The notes under the pieces were generated by a model. The model was given only the letters and a program-made list of their open reading frames with translations, was not told the DNA's origin and did not search any database. Position numbers and translations under genes: made by a program. 64,000 nt of DNA from Paraflavitalea sp. CAU 1676. GTDB taxonomy: Bacteria; Bacteroidota; Bacteroidia; Chitinophagales; Chitinophagaceae. Of the stretch, positions 6,214-55,092 are shown piece after piece. The stretch spans positions 1 through 64,000 of the forward strand of contig NZ_JARHUJ010000006.1 of assembly GCF_029223285.1 (NCBI RefSeq). Reading direction: 5' to 3'. Each line of letters begins with the position of its first letter. Within the stretch, counting starts at the first letter, position 1.

Positions 6214-6693
6214 CTATTTTGTAGCCTTCTTCTTATTGGCTTTGTACCGCATATCGGGCGTACCGTCTTTCTTGGCAGGGCCTGAAGCGCTTGCCTGGTT
6301 TGCCTTGTAGCGCTTATCGGGCGTACCATCTTTTTTTACAGGGCCAGCGGGTGCTGTGGAAGCTGCCGGTTTACTGCCTGCCTGTGGGTTCGCAGAAGCC
6401 GAAGGCGTTGCAGAAGCGGTTGGCTTACTACCGGCAGCAGGCTTACTGGCCGATGCAGGTGTAGCGGCATGGTGGTTACGCTCTTTCTTTTTGTCGTGCT
6501 TAGCAGCTACGGCAGCACTGTCTGCCTTTAGCGTTTTGTCGGCTTTAAATGCTTTCTTCTCTTTCTTATGACCTGCCTTTGCTGCCGCCTGCGTTTTCGC
6601 AGGCTCCTGTACTTTTGTATCTGTGGCCGACTGAGCAAAGGTGGCAGCATTGATACCAATCAGAACGAGGGCTGCTAATAATACTCTTTTCAT
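6214..6693 (-). CDS. Secreted Ala/Lys/Pro-rich protein with two KKDGTPDxRYKAN repeats
   Basis: A 159-residue protein with a signal peptide (MKRVLLAALVLIGINAATFA-QS). The mature part is low-complexity, rich in Ala, Lys, Ser, Pro and Thr, with no obvious fold until the C-terminus, where a 21-residue unit appears twice: KKDGTPDKRYKAN and KKDGTPDMRYKAN, also visible as a 63-bp imperfect DNA repeat (6241-6282 and 6304-6345). Its ATG overlaps the stop of the upstream polysaccharide fusion gene by four bases (ATGA), so the two are translated together. A strongly basic exported protein next to a polymer synthase could bind an anionic or partly deacetylated polymer, but this is inference; no function is known to me. 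Confidence 0.75.
   Translation of the reverse strand: MKRVLLAALVLIGINAATFAQSATDTKVQEPAKTQAAAKAGHKKEKKAFKADKTLKADSAAVAAKHDKKKERNHHAATPASASKPAAGSKPTASATPSASANPQAGSKPAASTAPAGPVKKDGTPDKRYKANQASASGPAKKDGTPDMRYKANKKKATK
6241..6345 (-). repeat. Two 42-bp coding repeats, 63-bp period
   Basis: Imperfect direct repeats at 6241-6282 and 6304-6345 encode the KKDGTPDxRYKAN motif twice at the end of the small secreted protein. Confidence 0.8.
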
Positions 6694-9600
6694 GTGTTTT
6701 GATATTTGATTTTAACGAAACTTACATTACCGGTCCGCTTCAACACACCCCATCCCTGCCCTTCTCCTTTAACGGCTTTCCGAAGCGCTTTAAAAAGGAT
6801 CACATACATTAGCTGCCTGTACACCAATCGCTGTGGTATCAACCACACCAGCTTACCTGGCTTTTCTTTCTCGAATGCGAAAGCTACGATGCTCACCAGT
6901 ATATCCACTGCAAAAAATACGAGGTAGTATACCAGTATCTTATGCATACTCTCGGGGTCGTGCCTGTTCCAGATAAGGCTCAACACGAACATGACATCTG
7001 CTAACGGAGCCAATGCCGGTAATATTATTTGAAAGAGTAGAATATTCGGAAGCGATACCATACCGAGCGCCTTGTAACGCGGATTAAAACAGGCGTCCCG
7101 GTTCTTCCAAAAGCTTTGCATGATTCCGTAGGTCCAGCGAAAGCGCTGTTTCATGAATTGTTTCAGCGTCTCCGGCGCCTCCGTAACAGCAATCGCATCC
7201 GGACAATTGACAATCTGGTATCCATTGCGAAGAATACGAATGGTAAGATCGCAATCTTCCGCAAGTGTATCACTCGTAAAACCATCAGCCGCTTCAATCG
7301 CTGCTTTTCTGAATGCGCCAATGGCGCCCGGCACCACCGTGATCCCATTGACGAGGTCAAAAGCCCGACGATCAAAATTCTGTGCGGTAGTATATTCGAT
7401 ACTCTGCCAGCGGGTGAGCATATTGCGCTCATTACCCACTTTTACGTTCCCGGCAACAGCACCAACCATAGCAACATCGCTGCTATTTGTTGATGGCTCT
7501 GCGATAAACTTCGTCATCAACATCCTCACAGCATGCTGTTTCAGCTGTGTATCTGCATCTATACAAACCACAAAGTCATGCTGTGTATGCGCGATCCCAA
7601 AATTCAAAGCCGATGCTTTACCGCCATTGGGCTTAGTGAGTACTTTTACCCGGTCATCTCCGGCAAATGCAGCCTGCACACGCTGGTAGGTTGCATCTTT
7701 CGAACCATCATCTACAAAGATGATATCAAAGGCAGGATAGTCCTGTTGCAACAGGTTTTCGATTGTCTTCACCGCATTGATCTCCTCGTTGTAAGCCGGG
7801 ACTATAATACTTACCGCTGGCCATGCATCTGCAGGAATCAACGTAGCTGCCATACGTCGGCCAGCTATGATCTTTTGCATCAGGGCCATGATCGCCATAC
7901 TGCCAATACGGATAAAACCAAGCAGGATCGCTACCCAAAACGCCGCACTGAGAAATTGTCCCAGCCAGTAACCCACTGTTGCGATCCTGCCATTCCAGGC
8001 CACCAGGCTATTATTCACTGGCGGCATCACCTCATCTTTTGTTTTACCCAACAAACCCGAAATAGTAGTAAACCCAATACCCCGTTCCTTGAAATAATGA
8101 ATGATCCCTGGCAGGGCAGCCACAGTAGCCGCGCGGTTACCACCAGCGTCGTGCAGCAGAATGATGCCCTTTTCGGGATTCGCTTCATATTCCCTGATCG
8201 TCCTCGCATATATGCTGTCGGCGGTAACACCCTTCTCCCAGTCGTTGGGGTCGATGCTTTCTCCCACCGTATAATAGTTCTGTTGCTTGCTCAGGTTAAT
8301 GGGACGTAACTCTACATCGGTAGTAGGTTCAGAATCGGCATTGTAAGGCGCCCTGAAGAGGACCGTGGTATGCCCGGTGATCGATTCAATCAACAGGCGT
8401 GTAGCCTCCATTTCGGTAGCTGCCCTTTCGGGACTCACCATCGCTATATTGGGATGGGTGAAGGTGTGATTGCCGATCTCATGCCCTTCGCGATAGATCC
8501 TTTTCAACAAGGGCAGATTATTCTCCGCCTGCAAACCGATCACGAAAAACGCGGCTGGTACATTTTCCTTCTTAAGTATATCGAGCACCTGTGGCGTATA
8601 GGTAGGATCGGGTCCGTCGTCGAAAGTAAGCGCCACCTGTTTATGTACCACTCCATATTTCCGGATCACGTATTTGGTGGGCAACTGCACATATCGTTGT
8701 TCGCCGATAAGGCCTTCCGTACTGTCTACCATAATGTCGATCTTGCCGGGCTGGGGCGCCGTGATCACATTGAGCACTTCACCATCGCCGATGTAGTCGG
8801 GCCTTTCCACCGGCGTATTTACTGTCATCAGTTTGTTGTAATCGAAAGGATGTGCGGCAATTGCTTTATTGGTGAGGTTTCGGTTGTAAAAGGTCCAGAG
8901 GCGTTCATCTTCACTGCCCAATCTCCACAAGGCAGTGCCTGCTGTACCATACTCGTCTGCAAACCTTACCGTATTGAAATTAGAAGCTGCATCATTGAAA
9001 TACACGTCATGTCCCCTGCCATTGCCATCGGTATATTGGTAATGGTTATTGTAGGTATCGTTGTCAAAATCGATGTCGGCGTTGTACTGGCGGGCATTTG
9101 CCAGCGCCTGCTGGTAAGTTACTGTAGTAGCTTCCATATGGCCGGCCCAATCGTATCCATAGCCTGCAATGCAGAGGATCAGTTTGTCGGTAGGTATCTC
9201 TTTAGCAGTTTCATCCAGCACTTTCTCGATCCACTGCTGACTACTCACGCTGCCCGGTACACTTGAGGCAAAATGTTCGTCGTAGGCCATGAGGAACATA
9301 TAATCATTATACCGCTGCAACTCGCCTACATTAAAGTCCGCATCGTGGGGCATAATATCCTGCGTAACCAGGTAACCTTTGGGATGCAACTTATTGTACA
9401 GCTCCCGCTGAAAGGCAATGATAGGCTCATCCCCTTTTTCCCGAAACTCTTCAAAGTCAATATTAATACCTTGCAGTTGATATTGATCGAGGTACTTTAC
9501 GATATCATTGATAAGGCGTTCGCGCTTTAGCGGGTTGTGCAGGATGCGGTGTAACATGGCGCCATCGAAGCCGCCTTCTCCCAATTGCTCATTGGTATTG

Positions 9601-10112
9601 TTGATCAGGGGAACAATCTTCACCTGCTTTTGCTTCATGACCTGCAGGGCCTCCTGGTCTATTTCAACGCGCAGGGTATCGGTAGCCGGGTCGATAAAGA
9701 ACCATTCGGGCACCACCATGTTGAGCTTATCGATATGCTGTTGCAGGGAATAAAAAGACTGCGGATCCCAGTCCACATAAAAAGCAGCCCGCACCTGGTG
9801 ACTGGTAAGGTGCGGCGTATGATGCAGTAATTCGTTGTTCCTTTCCCGCGCCTGCAGGAAGGCTTCAAAGCCTTTGTATTTGCGGGCCTCCTGTTTGTTA
9901 AGGCCGGCCGGCGTAATCGGATGTGGCAGTTCATGTAAGGCATCTGTGCTGCTGGCCAGGGCCGGTAATCCCGGCTTCAGCGCTTTGTTGAGGGTGATGA
10001 TCACCACCGGCACCGTAAGTATCAGCAAAAAAAAGAGCGACCTGCCAGTCCACTGGAAGGTCCGCCACCGCCACTTTGAATCCGTCTGAAATATTTGATG
10101 TTGCGCGCCCAT
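6690..10112 (-). CDS. Trifunctional GH18 / polysaccharide deacetylase / GT2 synthase fusion
   Basis: An 1140-residue membrane protein with three enzyme modules. After an N-terminal membrane anchor (about 25-43) comes a GH18-type hydrolase domain (about 100-430) with GINIDFEEF (near 219, catalytic Glu present) and FLMAYDE. Next is a NodB-type deacetylase (about 490-700) with LTFDDGPDP, the metal-binding NHTFTHP, FRAPYN and LLHDAGG. A membrane span (about 725-760) leads to a GT2 synthase (about 765-1000) with VPAYNEE, DDGSKDAT, CIDADTQ (DxD), EDCDLT and QRFRW, as in chitin, hyaluronan and PgaC synthases, followed by several membrane spans. Predicted topology puts the GT2 in the cytoplasm and the other two outside. 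It likely makes, exports, deacetylates and trims a GlcNAc-type polymer. Downstream gene overlaps by 4 bases. Confidence 0.9.
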   Translation of the reverse strand: MGAQHQIFQTDSKWRWRTFQWTGRSLFFLLILTVPVVIITLNKALKPGLPALASSTDALHELPHPITPAGLNKQEARKYKGFEAFLQARERNNELLHHTPHLTSHQVRAAFYVDWDPQSFYSLQQHIDKLNMVVPEWFFIDPATDTLRVEIDQEALQVMKQKQVKIVPLINNTNEQLGEGGFDGAMLHRILHNPLKRERLINDIVKYLDQYQLQGINIDFEEFREKGDEPIIAFQRELYNKLHPKGYLVTQDIMPHDADFNVGELQRYNDYMFLMAYDEHFASSVPGSVSSQQWIEKVLDETAKEIPTDKLILCIAGYGYDWAGHMEATTVTYQQALANARQYNADIDFDNDTYNNHYQYTDGNGRGHDVYFNDAASNFNTVRFADEYGTAGTALWRLGSEDERLWTFYNRNLTNKAIAAHPFDYNKLMTVNTPVERPDYIGDGEVLNVITAPQPGKIDIMVDSTEGLIGEQRYVQLPTKYVIRKYGVVHKQVALTFDDGPDPTYTPQVLDILKKENVPAAFFVIGLQAENNLPLLKRIYREGHEIGNHTFTHPNIAMVSPERAATEMEATRLLIESITGHTTVLFRAPYNADSEPTTDVELRPINLSKQQNYYTVGESIDPNDWEKGVTADSIYARTIREYEANPEKGIILLHDAGGNRAATVAALPGIIHYFKERGIGFTTISGLLGKTKDEVMPPVNNSLVAWNGRIATVGYWLGQFLSAAFWVAILLGFIRIGSMAIMALMQKIIAGRRMAATLIPADAWPAVSIIVPAYNEEINAVKTIENLLQQDYPAFDIIFVDDGSKDATYQRVQAAFAGDDRVKVLTKPNGGKASALNFGIAHTQHDFVVCIDADTQLKQHAVRMLMTKFIAEPSTNSSDVAMVGAVAGNVKVGNERNMLTRWQSIEYTTAQNFDRRAFDLVNGITVVPGAIGAFRKAAIEAADGFTSDTLAEDCDLTIRILRNGYQIVNCPDAIAVTEAPETLKQFMKQRFRWTYGIMQSFWKNRDACFNPRYKALGMVSLPNILLFQIILPALAPLADVMFVLSLIWNRHDPESMHKILVYYLVFFAVDILVSIVAFAFEKEKPGKLVWLIPQRLVYRQLMYVILFKALRKAVKGEGQGWGVLKRTGNVSFVKIKYQNT

Positions 10113-45423: not shown

Positions 45424-45457
45424 TTTGTCACTTTTCATATGCTGCTGTTTAACTTTG
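45424..45457 (+). promoter_or_regulatory. Promoter of the UvrD-shell nuclease gene
   Basis: TTTG (45424-45427) and TAACTTTG (45450-45457) fit the Bacteroidota promoter with a 22-base spacer. The G of the -7 box is just 3 bases before the ATG at 45461, so the mRNA could be leaderless. Confidence 0.5.
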
Positions 45458-45460
45458 GAT

Positions 45461-47413
45461 ATGCATCATCCGCTTTTGCCTGTATCCGACCTGGAAAGGA
45501 TCGGCCTATTTGTCCATTTAATCGACCGGTTTCCCGTTGGGCATCCCCTCAAGCGATTCCGGGGTGATGTCTATTTCGAGATCGTCAATTTTCATCAGCT
45601 CTTCAAGGTTATGATGCAGGAAGGCTGGCAAACGGAAATCCTGCAGGAAGAGATTGAAGCGTACCTGGCCGGATTGGATACAACGGCCCTTCCGGCAGCT
45701 ATCGGATGGACGGAAAAGCTTACAGCAGCTCTGCACGAATTTGATAACTACCGCCTGCTGCTCGTGGACACGAACCGGTATGAACCGGTCAGGCGGGAAC
45801 CTGTTCTCAAAATTGCCGGGTCTTTCACACAGCAACCAACCCACATAGTGAGCCAGCAGTCGCCGGGCATACAGTCACTCCCTCCGACAGCGTCCATGCC
45901 CCTGGCTGTCCTGGAGGATCCATTTATTCAACAGGTGATCGTACTGCTTAACTACATCGTGGCAGAGCAGGAAATACCTTCCAGCGGCGAGGCTATGCTC
46001 TTTGAATTGTTGCATGGTCCCTGGTTCCAGATCGCGCCCAACGACATACTGGACCTTACACTGGACGTGGCCGACAGGCAATACACCGAGCACATTACCA
46101 CACTACGGCGGTTATTGTATGAAAAGGTGCATTCACCCGCCAAAAACCTTTTTGCGCCCGGTGCCCCTGCCGGAATGAAAAAGGCGTCTGATGCTATTGA
46201 AAAACTAATTCCTCTCGTTGGGCAGTTACCAGTGCCCGACGTGGTTTCACTGCTGCTGGAGGAAACCGGCATTACCGAACATATCGACCAGCATGCAGAC
46301 AATGCGACGCTCGCTCCCCGCCTAAACGCATTCCACAACTGGATTACCGAAGAATCCCTCCGGCACGCACCTAACAACCTGGGCAGATTGTTGAAGCTGA
46401 TCGCCCTCGCCCCTTATTTAAGCTGGGCCGATTCGCTGCCTGTTCCCACAGATCCGGATGGTCGGATTGTGGCATTGGGGCGTCTCTATAAAACTGCTGA
46501 CGACACAGACACCAAACCAGCCGATGAAAGCGCTGCCCCCATTTATCCCCTTCCCCATCCCCGGGGCCCTGTGCTCAGTTCTCCGTATAGAGCCATTGAG
46601 AACAAGTTGGTACAGCGATTTGCGATGCATGCTACTGCACTTAACAGTTACCTGCGCTGCCCGCTGGAGTTCTATTACAATATCCTGGTGCGGACACCTT
46701 TCCCCAGAAATGAAGCCACCGAGTTTGGATCGGCCGTGCATTTTGCCCTGGAAATGTTATTTAAGAAGATGCAATCGAACCAGGAGGCATTTCCCGCCAA
46801 ACAGGCCTTTATACTGGATTTTGAAAGTTATATGCACCGGCGCAGAGCGAGTTTCACGCAGGAGCAATTCGACCGGCGCCTTGGCTATGGCAGAGAGGTA
46901 CTCGAGAACTATTACGAGCAGTATGCACATCGCTGGAATACCATTGTGACCGTGGAAAGGAATTTCCGGAATGTGGTGGTGAGGGGCGTTCCAATAAAAG
47001 GAAAGATCGACAAGCTGGAGTTTGATGGCCGTTCTGTAAACCTCGTGGACTATAAGACCGGCGACCCGGACAAGGCCGATTACCGGTTATCGCCACCCCG
47101 TGCCGCGAGCCCCCTTGGTGGTGACTATTGGCGGCAGGCTGTTTTTTATAAAATCCTCGTGGATAATTACCAGCAAAAAGAATGGAAGGTGACGAGCGCG
47201 GAATTCGATTTTATTGAACCCGACAGGCTGGGTGTTTATCACAAGGAAAAGTTATTTATCGGGCCTGAAGATGTTGAGACCGTAACACAGCAATTCACCG
47301 TTGCGTGGGAGCGCATACGCGACAGGGATTTTTATACCGGCTGCGGCAAACCGGGATGCCACTGGTGCCGTTTTGTTAAATCATATGGGCTCGATACAAG
47401 CTCTCATCCATAA
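45461..47413 (+). CDS. UvrD-like protein without helicase motifs, with intact PD-(D/E)XK Fe-S nuclease
   Basis: A 650-residue protein from the ATG at 45461 (an earlier ATG at 45386 translates promoter DNA). The end is a RecB/AddB-type nuclease: TALNSYLRCPLEFYY, GSAVHFALE, GKIDKLEF, VDYKTGDPDKA and YWRQAVFYKILVD, plus three C-terminal Cys in GCGKPGCHWC that with the LRCP Cys should bind a 4Fe-4S cluster. The first 400 residues resemble accessory domains of Bacteroidota UvrD/Rep helicase-nucleases of roughly 1050-1100 residues: HPLKRFRGDVYFEIVNFHQLF (domain 1B-like) and VIVLLNYIVAEQEIPSSGEAMLFELLH (2B-like). But no Walker A, no DExx box, no SAKGLE-type motif and no YVAMTRA-type motif is present. 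The frame is intact, so it is probably a RecC/AddB-like non-motor nuclease partner rather than a pseudogene. Confidence 0.75.
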   Translation: MHHPLLPVSDLERIGLFVHLIDRFPVGHPLKRFRGDVYFEIVNFHQLFKVMMQEGWQTEILQEEIEAYLAGLDTTALPAAIGWTEKLTAALHEFDNYRLLLVDTNRYEPVRREPVLKIAGSFTQQPTHIVSQQSPGIQSLPPTASMPLAVLEDPFIQQVIVLLNYIVAEQEIPSSGEAMLFELLHGPWFQIAPNDILDLTLDVADRQYTEHITTLRRLLYEKVHSPAKNLFAPGAPAGMKKASDAIEKLIPLVGQLPVPDVVSLLLEETGITEHIDQHADNATLAPRLNAFHNWITEESLRHAPNNLGRLLKLIALAPYLSWADSLPVPTDPDGRIVALGRLYKTADDTDTKPADESAAPIYPLPHPRGPVLSSPYRAIENKLVQRFAMHATALNSYLRCPLEFYYNILVRTPFPRNEATEFGSAVHFALEMLFKKMQSNQEAFPAKQAFILDFESYMHRRRASFTQEQFDRRLGYGREVLENYYEQYAHRWNTIVTVERNFRNVVVRGVPIKGKIDKLEFDGRSVNLVDYKTGDPDKADYRLSPPRAASPLGGDYWRQAVFYKILVDNYQQKEWKVTSAEFDFIEPDRLGVYHKEKLFIGPEDVETVTQQFTVAWERIRDRDFYTGCGKPGCHWCRFVKSYGLDTSSHP

Positions 47414-47461: not shown

Positions 47462-48898
47462 ATGAAGCAGGTATTATCCATTCTTTTCATCCTTGTAGTG
47501 ATCGCTCAATTTCAGGTTATTACGGTTGGCTGTGCAAATATCATTGCCCCCATGGGTGGCCCGAAGGATTCTTTGCCCCCGCAGCTGATGGAAGTACGCC
47601 CTGCCGACTCTACCCGGCATTTTACCGGCAAGCGTATCGTATTTGAATTTGATGAGTTTATTGCTGCGCCGGATAATATCCAGGAGAACCTGTTGATTTC
47701 GCCCTTACCTAAACTCAATCCGGTGGTGACCAGTAAACTGAAAACACTTACTGTTGTCATAAAGGATACCCTTGAGGATAATACCACGTACTCGATTAAC
47801 TTTGGCAGTGCTATCAAGGACATCAATGAAGGGAATATACTGAAAGATTTCACGTACATTTTTACGACGGGGTCTACGGTCGACTCCCTGACCGTTTCGG
47901 GCAAGGTGATCGTAGCAGAGACCGGCAAACCCGACTCTACACTGATTGCAGCGCTTCATAAGAAAACAGACGATTCGGCTGTAGTAAAGGAGCGTCCACG
48001 TTATATTACCAAGCTTGATAAGGAAGGCCAGTTCACTTTCCACAACCTGCCTCCCGGCACTTTTGCTTTGTACGTTTTCAAGGACGAAGGTGGCCAGCGG
48101 AAGTTCATGAACCGCGGGCAGTTGTTTGCTTTTGCCGATTCACTCGTCAACACCACCGAAAAAAAATCATTTACCCTGTACGCTTACCCACAGCAGGAAA
48201 AAGAAGAAAAGAAAAAAGATACGGCAAAACCCAAAGCTCCGGTTGTTAAGCCGGCCACTAATAAAGGCGCTGGTGTGGGTCAGGATAAGCGATTGCGGCT
48301 TGAAACCAACCTGGCCAACCAGGAGCTGGATATCCTTGGTCAACTGGAGATCAGCTTCAAGGCTGCCCCCTTGAAATCATTCGATTCGACCAAAGTGCAG
48401 TTTGTCAGTGAAAAGTTTGAGCCCCTTTCCGGTTATCGATATATTACCGATAGCAGCAACAAGAAAATTACCTTACAGTACGCCTGGGTCCCGAATACGG
48501 CCTATAACCTCATCGTAGACAAAGATTTTGCGGAAGATTCACTGGGTCATAAACTGACAAGAACAGATACGCTCCAGTTCCGCACTAAAAAAGAGGCTGA
48601 CTATGGGCTGGTTCGTTTGCGTTTCCCGAACCTCGATCTTTCCAAGAATCCTGTATTACAGTTTGTGCAAGGCGATCAGGTCAAGTTTAGTCACCCCTTT
48701 ACCAATAATACCTTTAACGCAAAGCTCTTCATACCCGGCGAATATGACCTGAGGATCTTATTCGACACCAACAAAAATGGCATTTGGGATCCCGGCGATT
48801 TCTTTGGTAAGCACCTTCAACCAGAAAGGGTAATGCCCATTTCGCGCAAGCTGACCATTAAAGCCAACTGGGACAACGAAATTGACATTACCCTTTAG
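47462..48898 (+). CDS. Ig-like domain (Big_5) lipoprotein
   Basis: A 478-residue probable lipoprotein: the signal segment ends in ITVGC (Cys about residue 24) and is followed by ANIIAPMGGPKDSLPPQL, the typical start of this conserved Bacteroidota family. The Big_5 Ig-like domain (about 33-140) reads PADSTRHFTGKRIVFEFDEFI and TYSINFGSAIKDINEGN. A carboxypeptidase-regulatory-like segment (about 150-215) and a Lys-rich linker (KEEKKKDTAKPK) follow, then two more beta domains, the last with LRILFDTNKNGIWDPGDFFGK. It is likely a structural protein on the inner face of the outer membrane or the cell surface. Often found in single copy as a housekeeping gene; role unknown. Confidence 0.82.
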   Translation: MKQVLSILFILVVIAQFQVITVGCANIIAPMGGPKDSLPPQLMEVRPADSTRHFTGKRIVFEFDEFIAAPDNIQENLLISPLPKLNPVVTSKLKTLTVVIKDTLEDNTTYSINFGSAIKDINEGNILKDFTYIFTTGSTVDSLTVSGKVIVAETGKPDSTLIAALHKKTDDSAVVKERPRYITKLDKEGQFTFHNLPPGTFALYVFKDEGGQRKFMNRGQLFAFADSLVNTTEKKSFTLYAYPQQEKEEKKKDTAKPKAPVVKPATNKGAGVGQDKRLRLETNLANQELDILGQLEISFKAAPLKSFDSTKVQFVSEKFEPLSGYRYITDSSNKKITLQYAWVPNTAYNLIVDKDFAEDSLGHKLTRTDTLQFRTKKEADYGLVRLRFPNLDLSKNPVLQFVQGDQVKFSHPFTNNTFNAKLFIPGEYDLRILFDTNKNGIWDPGDFFGKHLQPERVMPISRKLTIKANWDNEIDITL

Positions 48899-51310: not shown

Positions 51311-52321
51311 ATGGACATCAGGAAACAATTAGAGAAGCGGATCTTGATCATCGATGGGGCCATGGGCACCATGATACAACGTTATAAGCTGGAGGAAGCC
51401 GATTACCGGGGTGAGCGTTTTAAGGACTGGCACCTGGATGTTAAAGGCAACAACGATCTCCTTTGTCTTACCCAACCTCATATTATTGAAGAGATACATA
51501 GTCAGTACCTTGAAGCAGGCGCCGACATTATCGAGACCAATACATTCTCCAGCACCACCATCGCGATGGCGGATTATGAAATGCAATCGCTGGCGTATGA
51601 ACTAAATGTGGCGGCTGCAAAATGCGGACGCCGGGCAGCAGACAAATACACGGCACAGGACCCTTCCAAACCACGCTACGTGGCTGGCGCTATCGGTCCG
51701 TTGAACAAGACGCTCAGCCTTTCGCCCGACGTGAACAACCCCGGTTTCCGGGCGCTCACTTTCGATGAGGCCATGACGGCCTATTATGAGCAGGTGAGCG
51801 GGCTCGTTGACGGTGGTGTAGACATTATCCTTATCGAAACCATCTTCGACACCCTGAACGCCAAGGCTGCCATTTATGCTACCAAGAAATACTTCCAGGA
51901 TACCAAAAAGCCAGAGCTGCCGATCATGATCAGCGGTACCATTACCGATGCGTCGGGCCGTACGCTGAGCGGGCAGACGCTGGAGGCATTTTATACCAGT
52001 GTAGCCCATGCCAAGCCTTTGAGCATTGGCCTCAATTGTGCATTGGGTGCTGCAGAAATGAGACCCCATATTGAAGAGCTGAGCCAGATAGCGGCTTGCT
52101 TTACATCGGCCTATCCGAACGCCGGCCTGCCCAATGCCATGGGTGAGTACGATGAACTGCCCGAGCAAACTGCCCACTTCATTGAAGAATGGGCTGAGCA
52201 GGGTTTCGTGAATATCGTGGGGGGCTGTTGTGGAACAACGCCAGATCATATCAGGCACATCGCTGATCATGTAAAGAAGATCACTCCAAGGCCTTTGCCG
52301 GTATTGGAGGAAGCCCTTTAA
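51311..52321 (+). CDS. metH: Methionine synthase, homocysteine-binding subunit (split MetH, N-terminal part)
   Basis: A 336-residue protein equal to the first domain of cobalamin-dependent methionine synthase. It begins [25 protein letters not shown] and carries the zinc/homocysteine site: Cys in [10 protein letters not shown] (about 240) and the Cys pair in [12 protein letters not shown] (about 305-306). It binds and activates homocysteine for methylation. The cobalamin, folate and reactivation domains are encoded by the next gene, 80 bases downstream, so both must act together. This split is common in Bacteroidota. It has a strong promoter and a long leader. Confidence 0.95.
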
Positions 52322-52401: not shown

Positions 52402-55092
52402 ATGTCTGAACAAGTAGTTATCAAGCCTTACTTACGGCTCTCAGGTCTGGAGCCGTTGATCGTTCGCCCGGAAACGAATTTCGTGAATGTGGGAGAGCGG
52501 ACGAATGTTACCGGTTCCAAGAAGTTTGCCCGTCTCATCCGGGAAAACAAATACGAGGAAGCGCTGAGTGTAGCCCGCCAACAGGTAGAGAGCGGAGCCC
52601 AGGTGCTTGACGTGAACATGGACGACGCCCTCCTGGATGGCGTTAAAGCCATGACCACATTCCTAAACCTGTTGCAGAGCGAGCCCGATATCGCCAAGAT
52701 CCCCATCATGATCGATAGCTCGAAGTTTGAGATCATAGAAGCGGGCCTGAAGTGCGTGCAGGGTAAGTGTATCGTTAACTCTATTTCCATGAAGGAGGGC
52801 GTTGACAAATTCATCCGTGAAGCCCAGATCTGTAAACTGTTCGGTGCGGCTGTCGTAGTGATGGCGTTTGATGAACAGGGGCAGGCTGATACTTTCCAGC
52901 GCAGGGTAGATATTTGTACCAAGGCGTATCAGATCCTCACGGAAGAAGTAGGCATTCCGCCACAAGACATCATTTTCGACCCGAATATCTTCGCCGTAGC
53001 GACAGGTATCGAGGAACACAATAATTACGCAATCGATTTTATCGAGGCTACCCGCGTCATCAAACAAAGAATGCCGCTGGCAAAGATCAGTGGCGGTGTG
53101 AGTAATATCTCGTTCTCGTTCCGTGGTAATGACCATGTGCGGGAGGCGATGCACAGCGTATTCCTGTATTATGCCATTAAAGCTGGTATGGATATGGGTA
53201 TCGTGAATGCCGGACAACTCGTGATCTATGATGAAATTGAGCCACAGCTGCGCGAACTCTGCGAAGATGTTATTCTTAACCGTCGTGCAGACTCAACCGA
53301 CCGATTGATCAGCTTTGCCGAAACCGTGAAGGCAAAGGGTAAAATTGAAGTGAAAGACGAGGCCTGGCGCAACGGTACCGTACAGGAACGATTGACGCAT
53401 GCTTTGGTAAACGGTATTACCGATTATATTGAACTGGATACCGAAGAAGCCCGCCAACAATATGCACGCCCCCTCGAAGTGATCGAAGGACCGCTGATGG
53501 ATGGTATGAACGTGGTGGGCGACCTGTTTGGCAGCGGTAAGATGTTCCTGCCACAGGTAGTTAAGAGTGCCCGTGTGATGAAGAAAAGTGTGGCCGTCCT
53601 GACCCCATTCATTGAAGAAGAAAAGAAGAAGAATCCCGCCGCTCAGTCAGGCGGTGCAGCCCGCATTCTGCTGGCTACCGTCAAGGGCGACGTTCATGAT
53701 ATTGGTAAAAACATTGTAGGCGTGGTATTGGGCTGTAATGGCTATGATATCATCGACCTGGGCGTAATGGTGCCAGCGGATAAGATCCTGGAAACGGCCC
53801 AAAGAGAGCGGGCGGATATTATTGGACTGAGTGGCCTGATCACGCCTTCACTCGACGAGATGGTGCATGTGGCCAAAGAGATGAAGCGCCGCAATATGAA
53901 ACAGCCGCTACTGATCGGTGGCGCTACCACTTCCAGGATGCACACGGCGGTGAAGATCGCGCCGGAGTATGATCTGGGCGTGGTGCACGTGCTGGATGCT
54001 TCGAGGAGTGTTACGGTAGCAGGTTCGCTGTTGAGCAATGAGCAGAAACCCGAATTCTTAACCAAGATCAGGGATGAGTATAAAAAGCTGAAAGAGGATT
54101 TTGGCAATAAGAAATCTGCCAAGCAATACCTGACTTTTGCCGACGCGCAAAAGAATAAAGTAAAGATCGACTGGGATGGATTTACTCCTGTGAAACCGAC
54201 CTTTACCGGCACTAAGATATTCGACAACTACGATCTTAGAGAGATTGCACAATACATCGATTGGGGTCCGTTCTTCATTGCCTGGGAGCTGCATGGCAAA
54301 TTCCCGGCCATCCTGAAGGATGAAAAGGTAGGCAAAGAGGCAACGAGGTTGTATGAGGATGCCAAAGTGCTGCTGAAACAGATCATTGATGAGAAATGGT
54401 TGAATGCGCGGGGTGTTATCGGCTTCTGGCCAGCAGAGGCAGTAGCAGCCGATACTGTTGAAGTGTTCAGCGACAAGGGTAAGTTCCAGCTGGACTTCCT
54501 GCGGCAGCAGGTGAAGAAAGCGGCCAACCAGCCGAATATCAGTCTGGCCGACTTCATCAAACCCTCTAATGGTTCTACTACTCCATCAGACTTTATCGGT
54601 GCTTTTACAGTAACCATGCAGGGCATTGAACCCCATGTAGAGCGTTTCGCTAAAAACATGGATGATTACAACAAGATCACACTGCAGGTATTAGCCGACA
54701 GGCTGGTGGAAGCTTTTGCCGAACTGTTGCATGAACGTGTTCGTAAAGAGTTCTGGGGCTATGCCAGTAACGAGCAGTTCTCCAATGAGGAGTTGATCAG
54801 CGAATCGTATTCCGGTATTCGACCTGCTCCCGGTTATCCCGCCTGTCCAGACCATACAGAAAAGTACAAACTGTTTGAAATGCTGGGCGGCAAGGAAGCT
54901 ACTGGTATCACGCTTACGGAGTCGCTGGCGATGTACCCTGCTTCTTCGGTGAGCGGATGGTATTTTGCCCATCCTGACAGTAAGTATTTCGGTATTGGTA
55001 AAATTGAAAAAGATCAGTTTGAAGATTACGCCAGGCGTAAAGGCATGCCGCTCGACGAAGCTGAGCGGTGGCTGCGCCCTGTACTGGAGTAA
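52402..55092 (+). CDS. metH: Methionine synthase, folate/cobalamin/reactivation subunit (split MetH, C-terminal part)
   Basis: An 896-residue protein with the three remaining MetH domains in order. The pterin-binding TIM barrel (about 15-300) has [16 protein letters not shown] and [11 protein letters not shown]. The cobalamin module (about 330-570) has the four-helix cap and [21 protein letters not shown] with the DxHxxG histidine that binds cobalt, then [10 protein letters not shown] and [12 protein letters not shown]. The reactivation domain (about 600-896) has [12 protein letters not shown] and binds S-adenosylmethionine. It transfers a methyl group from methyltetrahydrofolate through cobalamin to homocysteine held by the upstream subunit. 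Likely one operon with that gene. Confidence 0.96.

Follow-up and report, generated by a model that had tools for sequence, protein, structure and literature searches.

A helicase-nuclease gene without its motor domains in Paraflavitalea, with related forms in genomes carrying RecBCD or AddAB

We analyzed a 64,000-nucleotide stretch of the genome of Paraflavitalea sp. CAU 1676 (contig NZ_JARHUJ010000006.1, positions 1 to 64,000; hereafter the window). The gene at 45461..47413 on the plus strand, 650 codons plus stop, encodes a helicase-nuclease that lacks both RecA-like motor domains and keeps the 1B and 2B subdomains and an intact set of nuclease residues. Its full-length orthologue in other Chitinophagaceae is, judged from the sequence, a UvrD/PcrA-type helicase of about 1050 residues with a C-terminal Fe-S-type nuclease, in line with the roughly 1050-1100 residues that the original prediction had given for such proteins in Bacteroidota. 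Our preferred explanation, to which we assign a probability of roughly 0.6, is that the motor became redundant in a lineage bearing RecBCD and was deleted in frame, leaving a motor-free nuclease that uses 1B/2B as a platform.

Domain content of the window protein

The frame contains no internal stop codon, as the original prediction had read it, and its 650-residue product matched the Pfam family PDDEXK_1 (PF12705) at 74.5 bits, against a cut-off of 22, over residues 391-638; a second PDDEXK-like family gave one sub-threshold Pfam match. The nuclease region (46601..47410, plus strand), delimited from Pfam and the alignment, holds H427, D517, D530, K532, and Q559, which are invariant in 51/51 aligned sequences, as are Cys400, Cys628, Cys633, and Cys636. 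One cysteine precedes the nuclease core and three follow it, which is the sequence pattern of Fe-S nucleases of the AddB/Cas4 type. Based on the profile score and the H, D, DxK, and Q residues, we classify the protein as a PD-(D/E)XK nuclease of the PF12705 class. Matches to the NCBIfam models for Cas4, AddB, and AddA were weak and far below their cut-offs (22.4 bits against 65 for the Cas4 model TIGR00372), no UvrD family matched in Pfam at E<=1, and a phmmer search of PDB sequences returned nothing at E<=1. The original prediction had described an intact nuclease with four cysteines and no helicase motif, which Pfam, the alignment, and the invariant residues bear out; in the nuclease motif strings that it quoted, positions other than the invariant residues vary.

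The missing parts were mapped on an E-INS-i alignment with a full-length orthologue of 1045 aa (L119) as reference. The window protein lacks reference residues 2-114 (Q motif, Walker A, and Ia), residues 187-206 within 1B, residues 242 to about 435 (motifs II, III, and IV, comprising the rest of 1A and the first half of 2A), and residues 623 to about 751 (motifs V and VI), with short linker pieces between in the 242-435 gap and short pieces between in the last. It retains 102 of the 123 residues of 1B, all of 2B (172/172) and of the nuclease (261/261), 20/229 of 1A, and 58/196 of 2A, and most of the retained 1A and 2A positions are taken to be linker residues aligned there. These domain limits were set by us on the alignment; slightly different borders in a second count gave 108/128 for 1B, 172/172 for 2B, 261/261 for the nuclease, 14/224 for 1A, and 56/196 for 2A. 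The breakpoints fall near the 1A/1B and 2A/2B borders. The original prediction had proposed a UvrD shell with its motor excised in several places, to be checked by alignment with full-length Chitinophagaceae helicases. That alignment found the 1B/2B similarity and the missing RecA-like domains, so the shell and the excision stand, but the "several places" resolve into a loss that coincides with both RecA-like domains.

Along the gene, the 1B remnant (45464..45784, plus strand, residues 2-108), helical in the model and fused to the start codon after the loss of 1A, is followed by linker 1 (45785..45898, plus strand, residues 109-146), which marks the second deletion and has pLDDT under 50 at residues 111-146 and little constraint. 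The complete 2B domain, defined by alignment and model (45899..46429, plus strand, residues 147-323), is followed by linker 2 (46430..46600, plus strand, residues 324-380), where the third deletion removed motifs V-VI; this linker includes a short helix aligned to the motif VI region and lacking the motif VI arginine. An AlphaFold2 model of this short form (pLDDT 78.4, pTM 0.76, low confidence in both linkers) showed, ahead of residue 380, no strand longer than two residues, whereas in the model of a full-length orthologue (pLDDT 79.1, pTM 0.51) the strands that two RecA-like domains should have are present. The full-length protein also exceeded the Pfam cut-offs for UvrD-helicase, UvrD_C, and PDDEXK_1, and its best match in PDB was PcrA (1pjr). 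Alignment, Pfam, and model thus agree that Walker A and motifs Ia-VI of UvrD/PcrA SF1A helicases are absent from the window protein, in which 1B and 2B subdomains of this type are recognizable.

Foldseek searches with the short model gave eight matches at E<=0.001, among them AdnA, AddA/AddB, and RecB, the best being AdnA (7sjr_A, E 8.2e-06); these matches have an rmsd of 18-35 and TM-scores of 0.19-0.29 by query length, and give no rigid superposition. The alignment to PcrA/UvrD spanned about 170 columns (rmsd 4.4, E 0.11-0.13), which is weak alone. AdnA/AdnB, AddAB, and RecB, which belong to bacterial end-resection machines, have the domain order 1B-2B-nuclease, as does the window protein, which differs from them in lacking ATPase domains and in having no partner gene seen beside it. 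Cas4 and solo-Cas4, Exo5, and MGME1, likewise motor-free PD-(D/E)XK nucleases of the RecB/Cas4 kind, were weak structural matches (E 0.0085 or worse); they are small single-domain proteins, whereas in the window protein the nuclease is preceded by about 320 residues that form a helical 1B-2B module. UvrD-Cas4 fusion proteins of pfam12705 are reported from defence-associated and non-conserved contexts (PMC5704561, Hudaiberdiev et al. 2017). These fusions join a UvrD-like SF1 helicase and a Cas4-like nuclease in a single chain, the architecture from which the window protein descends; it differs from them in having neither RecA-like domain and in lying at a syntenic locus beside a lipoprotein-like gene. 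Among the open-access papers that our literature searches listed, none described a motor excision of this kind.

The locus and its conservation

The nuclease-containing gene was matched in 83 of the 99 relatives searched. All five Paraflavitalea genomes examined carry open frames of 607-679 aa with the same blocks missing; the four proteins other than that of the window share 53-59% identity with it, are open, and have invariant nuclease residues. Frames seen in other genera were 1022-1158 aa long, except for two cut by contig ends (G037, G047), one split frame (G018), and the g60 pair described below. The split frame of G018 (L156:4850-8029) is a full-length gene divided by one in-frame stop into frames of 391 and 668 codons, and this genome had no RecC or AddB matches. 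A scan of named genomes kept 80 of 220 relatives, of which one was short (P. pollutisoli), one ran off its contig, and 78 measured 1044-1105 aa. With strict regular expressions, 59 of these 78 frames matched at all four motor motifs; scored by alignment position, Walker A and motifs II, V, and VI all retain their key residues in 100/100 full-length proteins (a set that includes that of the RecC-positive G010). Within the genus, G002 (L034, G002:C149) additionally encodes a distant helicase-nuclease in a 1041-aa frame with 24% nuclease identity, and other PDDEXK_1 proteins are found at G000:C12:786349-786762 (L042) and G001:C15:1930099-1930773 (L160), in frames of 341 and 682 aa.

Downstream of the window gene lies a lipoprotein-like gene (CANIIAPMGGPKDS...; 47462..48898, plus strand). 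The same neighbour follows the gene in 68 of the 74 named loci whose sequence extends far enough, and in 5/5 Paraflavitalea genomes, and because it is common to the window and full-length loci, we regard these as the same locus. Read by eye, the neighbours of the window gene are a response regulator and this lipoprotein-like gene, and neither a helicase gene nor an AddA or RecB partner gene was seen beside it. A TAnnTTTG element (TAACTTTG; 45450..45457, plus strand), which we take to be the Bacteroidota -7-like promoter motif, ends 3 nt before the ATG. By eye, it stands 3-4 nt before the ATG in 5/5 Paraflavitalea genomes; it occurs within 60 nt before the start in 22 of 76 full-length orthologues, in several of them at 4-5 nt. 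Since the element is shared with full-length starts, the deletion seems to have joined the old predicted promoter and start to 1B. Elsewhere in the window, methionine synthase is encoded, according to the translations, by two adjacent genes at 51311-52321 (homocysteine-binding, 336 aa) and 52402-55092 (the 896-aa remainder), and a 1140-aa frame at 6690-10112 on the minus strand combines, by eye, chitinase-like, polysaccharide deacetylase, and membrane glycosyltransferase parts in one chain.

Mean identity within Paraflavitalea was 0.74 in the nuclease, 0.59 in 1B, and 0.48 in 2B; pairs of full-length proteins at matched nuclease identity (n=3066, mean 0.74) averaged 0.70 in 1B and 0.65 in 2B. 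Selection among orthologues, an estimate that the original prediction had suggested, gave a pN/pS of 0.22 in the nuclease, 0.38 in 1B, 0.48 in 2B, and 0.88 and 0.71 in the linkers, and the true values should be lower because synonymous sites are saturated. The nuclease thus looks as constrained as in full-length proteins, and 1B and 2B look relaxed but not free. The presence of the motor-less form in 5/5 Paraflavitalea genomes, together with the strong nuclease constraint, indicates that this form is no artefact and no recent pseudogene, in agreement with the ancient origin originally predicted. That the motor is hidden by a frameshift, an assembly gap, or a sequencing artefact is practically negligible as an explanation: in-frame stops or frameshifts do occur in relatives (G018, G243, G172), but the same blocks are missing in all five genomes, including the single-contig G003, and the ATG with its conserved upstream element stands directly before 1B.

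Resection systems and the recurrence of motor loss

The genome carrying the window has a recB-recC-recD cluster, each gene over its NCBIfam cut-off. By eye, its RecB contains the nuclease residues, which rules out a dead RecB nuclease served in trans. UvrD profiles matched six of its proteins: a PcrA/UvrD-like protein, RecB, RecD, and three others read by eye. A search of this genome with the window protein returned only the protein itself at E<=0.001, and no full-length paralogue. Outside the genus, the closest relatives of its RecC are those of genus g7 (G010 60%, G369 and G393 59%, G219 56%) and G227 (57%), and other RecC matches of length share 37-50%; the high identity to g7 and G227 suggests that the RecBCD cluster may have moved between genera.

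RecBCD and AddAB have been described as complementary in their distribution (PMC1193525). In our 99-genome census, RecC was present in 9 genomes and AddB-like proteins in 15, all 15 of which match one another; G076 was rejected as an AddB carrier, as its 946-aa match resembles no AddB. Among the 24 genomes with RecC or AddB, the helicase-nuclease gene was of motor length in 1 (G010), motor-less in 7, and missing in 16, the last including G075 and G097, whose weak matches were taken as AddB. Of the other 75 genomes, 73 had a motor-length gene (two of these cut by contig ends, and G018 split by its in-frame stop), and the 2 without one are incomplete (G052, G073). Motor motifs were read in part of this census, and the rest was judged by frame length.

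Among 394 genomes of the family, 335 matched the nuclease and 46 matched RecC. Two weak RecC matches in this set (G220, G284), like that of G069 in the 99-genome set (about 17-21 bits), were not counted, and three counted matches are fragments (G178, G228, G331). The gene was matched in 17 of 44 RecC-positive genomes versus 318 of 350 RecC-negative ones (Fisher p 1.6e-14); this census covers RecC, and both censuses ignore shared ancestry. The 318 include weak matches in G124 and G252 (961-aa frames, E 6e-4 to 9e-4), G383, and G406, which are probably AddB cross-hits. Frames were seen for the best-scoring matches and for 35 genomes, a coverage at which a motor-less form in a RecC-negative genome could be missed. 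Short frames in RecC-negative genomes were rejected as motor-less candidates where they run off a contig end (G233, G353, G367, G155, G165, G314, G242, G119, G037, G047), are split with motor motifs present (G172, G243), are cut by a contig end with the nuclease split (G138), or lie near a contig end and hold a TAG (G402); reduced or split frames left unread are those of G120, G197, G283, G336, G293, G325, G125, G253, G247, G248, G220, and G431.

The 17 RecC-positive genomes with a match comprise the five Paraflavitalea, four with deleted motors, two with damaged motors, five with intact motors, and one (G291) whose match is a different helicase-nuclease (26% identity). The deleted forms in other genera are frames of 658 aa in G214, 602 in G268, 460 in G111, and 403 in G154. 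Of the damaged ones, which are full length and keep Walker A, G227 has DD for DE in motif II with III and V changed, and G235 has motifs II, III, and V destroyed. All motor motifs are present in G010, G369, G393, G425, and G331, the last with a contig-end fragment as its RecC match. In another family, G083 has a motor-less form of 522 aa together with AddAB, and G063, which makes up the g60 pair with it, has a form of the same type over two contig ends, also with AddAB. Every motor-less or damaged form read keeps the nuclease residues and four cysteines (G063 by eye).

The extent of the deletions varied among these forms. In Paraflavitalea, 1B and the whole of 2B remain; G214 lacks 1A and 1B, has 159 of 196 positions of 2A with motifs V and VI destroyed, and keeps all of 2B; and G268 retains roughly half of 2A and almost the entire 2B. 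Of the 172 positions of 2B, 121 are kept in G111, 104 in G154, and 96 in G083, and 1B is absent or nearly so in all motor-deleted forms outside Paraflavitalea. RecC-negative congeners with intact motors were found for G227 (G019, G157), G235 (G376, G399), and G214 (G264). G235 shares an identity of 0.25 with its congeners in 1A and 0.47-0.49 in the nuclease, compared with 0.70 and 0.55 between the congeners themselves. Genus g131, to which G214 belongs (with G264, G307, G413, G141, G339, and G391), retains a full-length gene in RecC-negative members (G264 read; G307 and G413 by frame length), and its RecC-positive members are G214 and three species without a gene match, one of which (G391) is only 88% complete. 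The lipoprotein-like neighbour is present downstream in G214, G111, and G227 and was not found in G268, G154, G235, and G083, so that orthology of the latter is judged from sequence.

Both phylogenetic trees were of a quick kind. In the first, Paraflavitalea (support 100) and G083/G063 (100) form separate clades with full-length proteins between them, with a long-branch warning near G063/G083. In a nuclease tree of all forms, motor deletion amounts to six parsimony changes, of which only two are forced by well-supported branches; G227 lies inside a clade with intact motors (98), G268 groups with G235 (84), and G111 and G154 are on long branches. A separate origin of each motor loss is therefore not proven by the trees, and the motor-less forms outside Paraflavitalea and g60 are each represented by one genome. 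The five RecC-positive genomes with intact motors and the 27 of 44 without any gene match indicate that neither motor loss nor nuclease retention is obligatory.

Explanations for a motor-free nuclease

Our best reading is that where end resection is carried out by RecBCD or AddAB, the motor is free to decay while the nuclease can persist without it. In a RecBCD-bearing ancestor of Paraflavitalea, the ATP motor of the single-chain helicase-nuclease found in most Chitinophagaceae would have become redundant, and both RecA-like domains would have been deleted in frame, leaving 1B, 2B, and a presumably Fe-S-containing nuclease. We infer the order, RecBCD first and motor loss second, from the intact-motor RecC-positive genomes and the graded series of forms. 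ATP hydrolysis by SF1 helicases needs Walker A and motif II, and the remnant should neither hydrolyze ATP nor translocate because its nucleotide-binding residues are absent. Its most likely role, with an activity and polarity presumed by analogy with the domains of Cas4, the AddB nuclease, and Exo5, would be to trim single-stranded DNA ends or flaps, and 2B, with 1B, may provide a platform for binding DNA or a partner.

An alternative that we consider unlikely is that the 1B/2B shell docks onto a separate motor in trans (RecBCD, PcrA, or some other SF1 helicase) and brings the nuclease to it, forming a split helicase-nuclease. The genome does encode PcrA-like and RecBCD proteins, 1B and 2B are still constrained in Paraflavitalea, and 2B is complete or almost complete in Paraflavitalea, G214, and G268 and partial in G111, G154, and G083. 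However, 1B and 2B have diverged faster than they have in full-length proteins, 1B has all but disappeared from the motor-deleted forms of other genera, RecB holds its own nuclease residues, and no helicase gene was seen by eye beside the window gene.

We regard as slightly less probable still that the motor-less forms are relics in slow decay toward complete loss, with the nuclease lingering. The graded series from damaged motor to deletion to absence, the high proportion of RecC-positive genomes without the gene, and the faster evolution of 1B/2B, with 1B and part of 2B missing outside the genus, would all fit such decay, and the partial loss of 2B in three forms was weighed slightly against the preferred explanation. 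Single-genome forms outside Paraflavitalea and g60 could indeed be a passing stage. Decay is less likely in Paraflavitalea, with its five genomes, than in these single cases: the four other proteins remain open at 53-59% identity with invariant nuclease residues, and nuclease identity is as high as in full-length pairs of the matched range.

The original prediction had favored a non-motor partner of an active paralogue, similar to RecC or AddB, and this now appears very improbable. RecC and AddB keep folded 1A/2A helicase domains without catalytic motifs, and this fold is absent from the window protein in both model and alignment. The best structural matches (AdnA, AddA, AddB, and RecB) would suit such a partner, although at an rmsd of 18-35 and low TM-scores; the genome has no paralogue, it has a genuine RecC of its own, and no helicase gene was seen next to the window gene. 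The likeness to RecC is that one half of a helicase-nuclease has lost its catalytic function: RecC is described as keeping an inactivated nuclease-like domain (PMC1185551), whereas the window protein has lost the motor folds and keeps the nuclease residues.

Returning to motor redundancy, a wider version of it is tentative and in our view falls somewhat short of even odds: in the presence of RecBCD or AddAB, Chitinophagales would repeatedly turn a helicase-nuclease into a nuclease without a motor, and this nuclease, together with some or all of 2B, would have a separate selectable function, for example the trimming of single-stranded DNA ends or nuclease action in trans to a foreign motor. In Paraflavitalea, the excision would then have removed the two RecA-like domains and hardly anything more.

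The usual view of a helicase-nuclease is that of a coupled machine whose motor feeds its nuclease. The retention of a nuclease after the loss of its motor, in genomes with a second resection machine, suggests an independent task for the nuclease arm, and if this is true, that function was hidden inside the ancestral helicase-nuclease. In Paraflavitalea, 1B and 2B are still constrained although the RecA-like core that housed them as insertions is gone, and the motor-less forms offer natural separation-of-function mutants. The graded series of intact motor, damaged motor, deleted motor, and no gene may represent the non-orthologous replacement of a DNA-break resection system in these bacteria.
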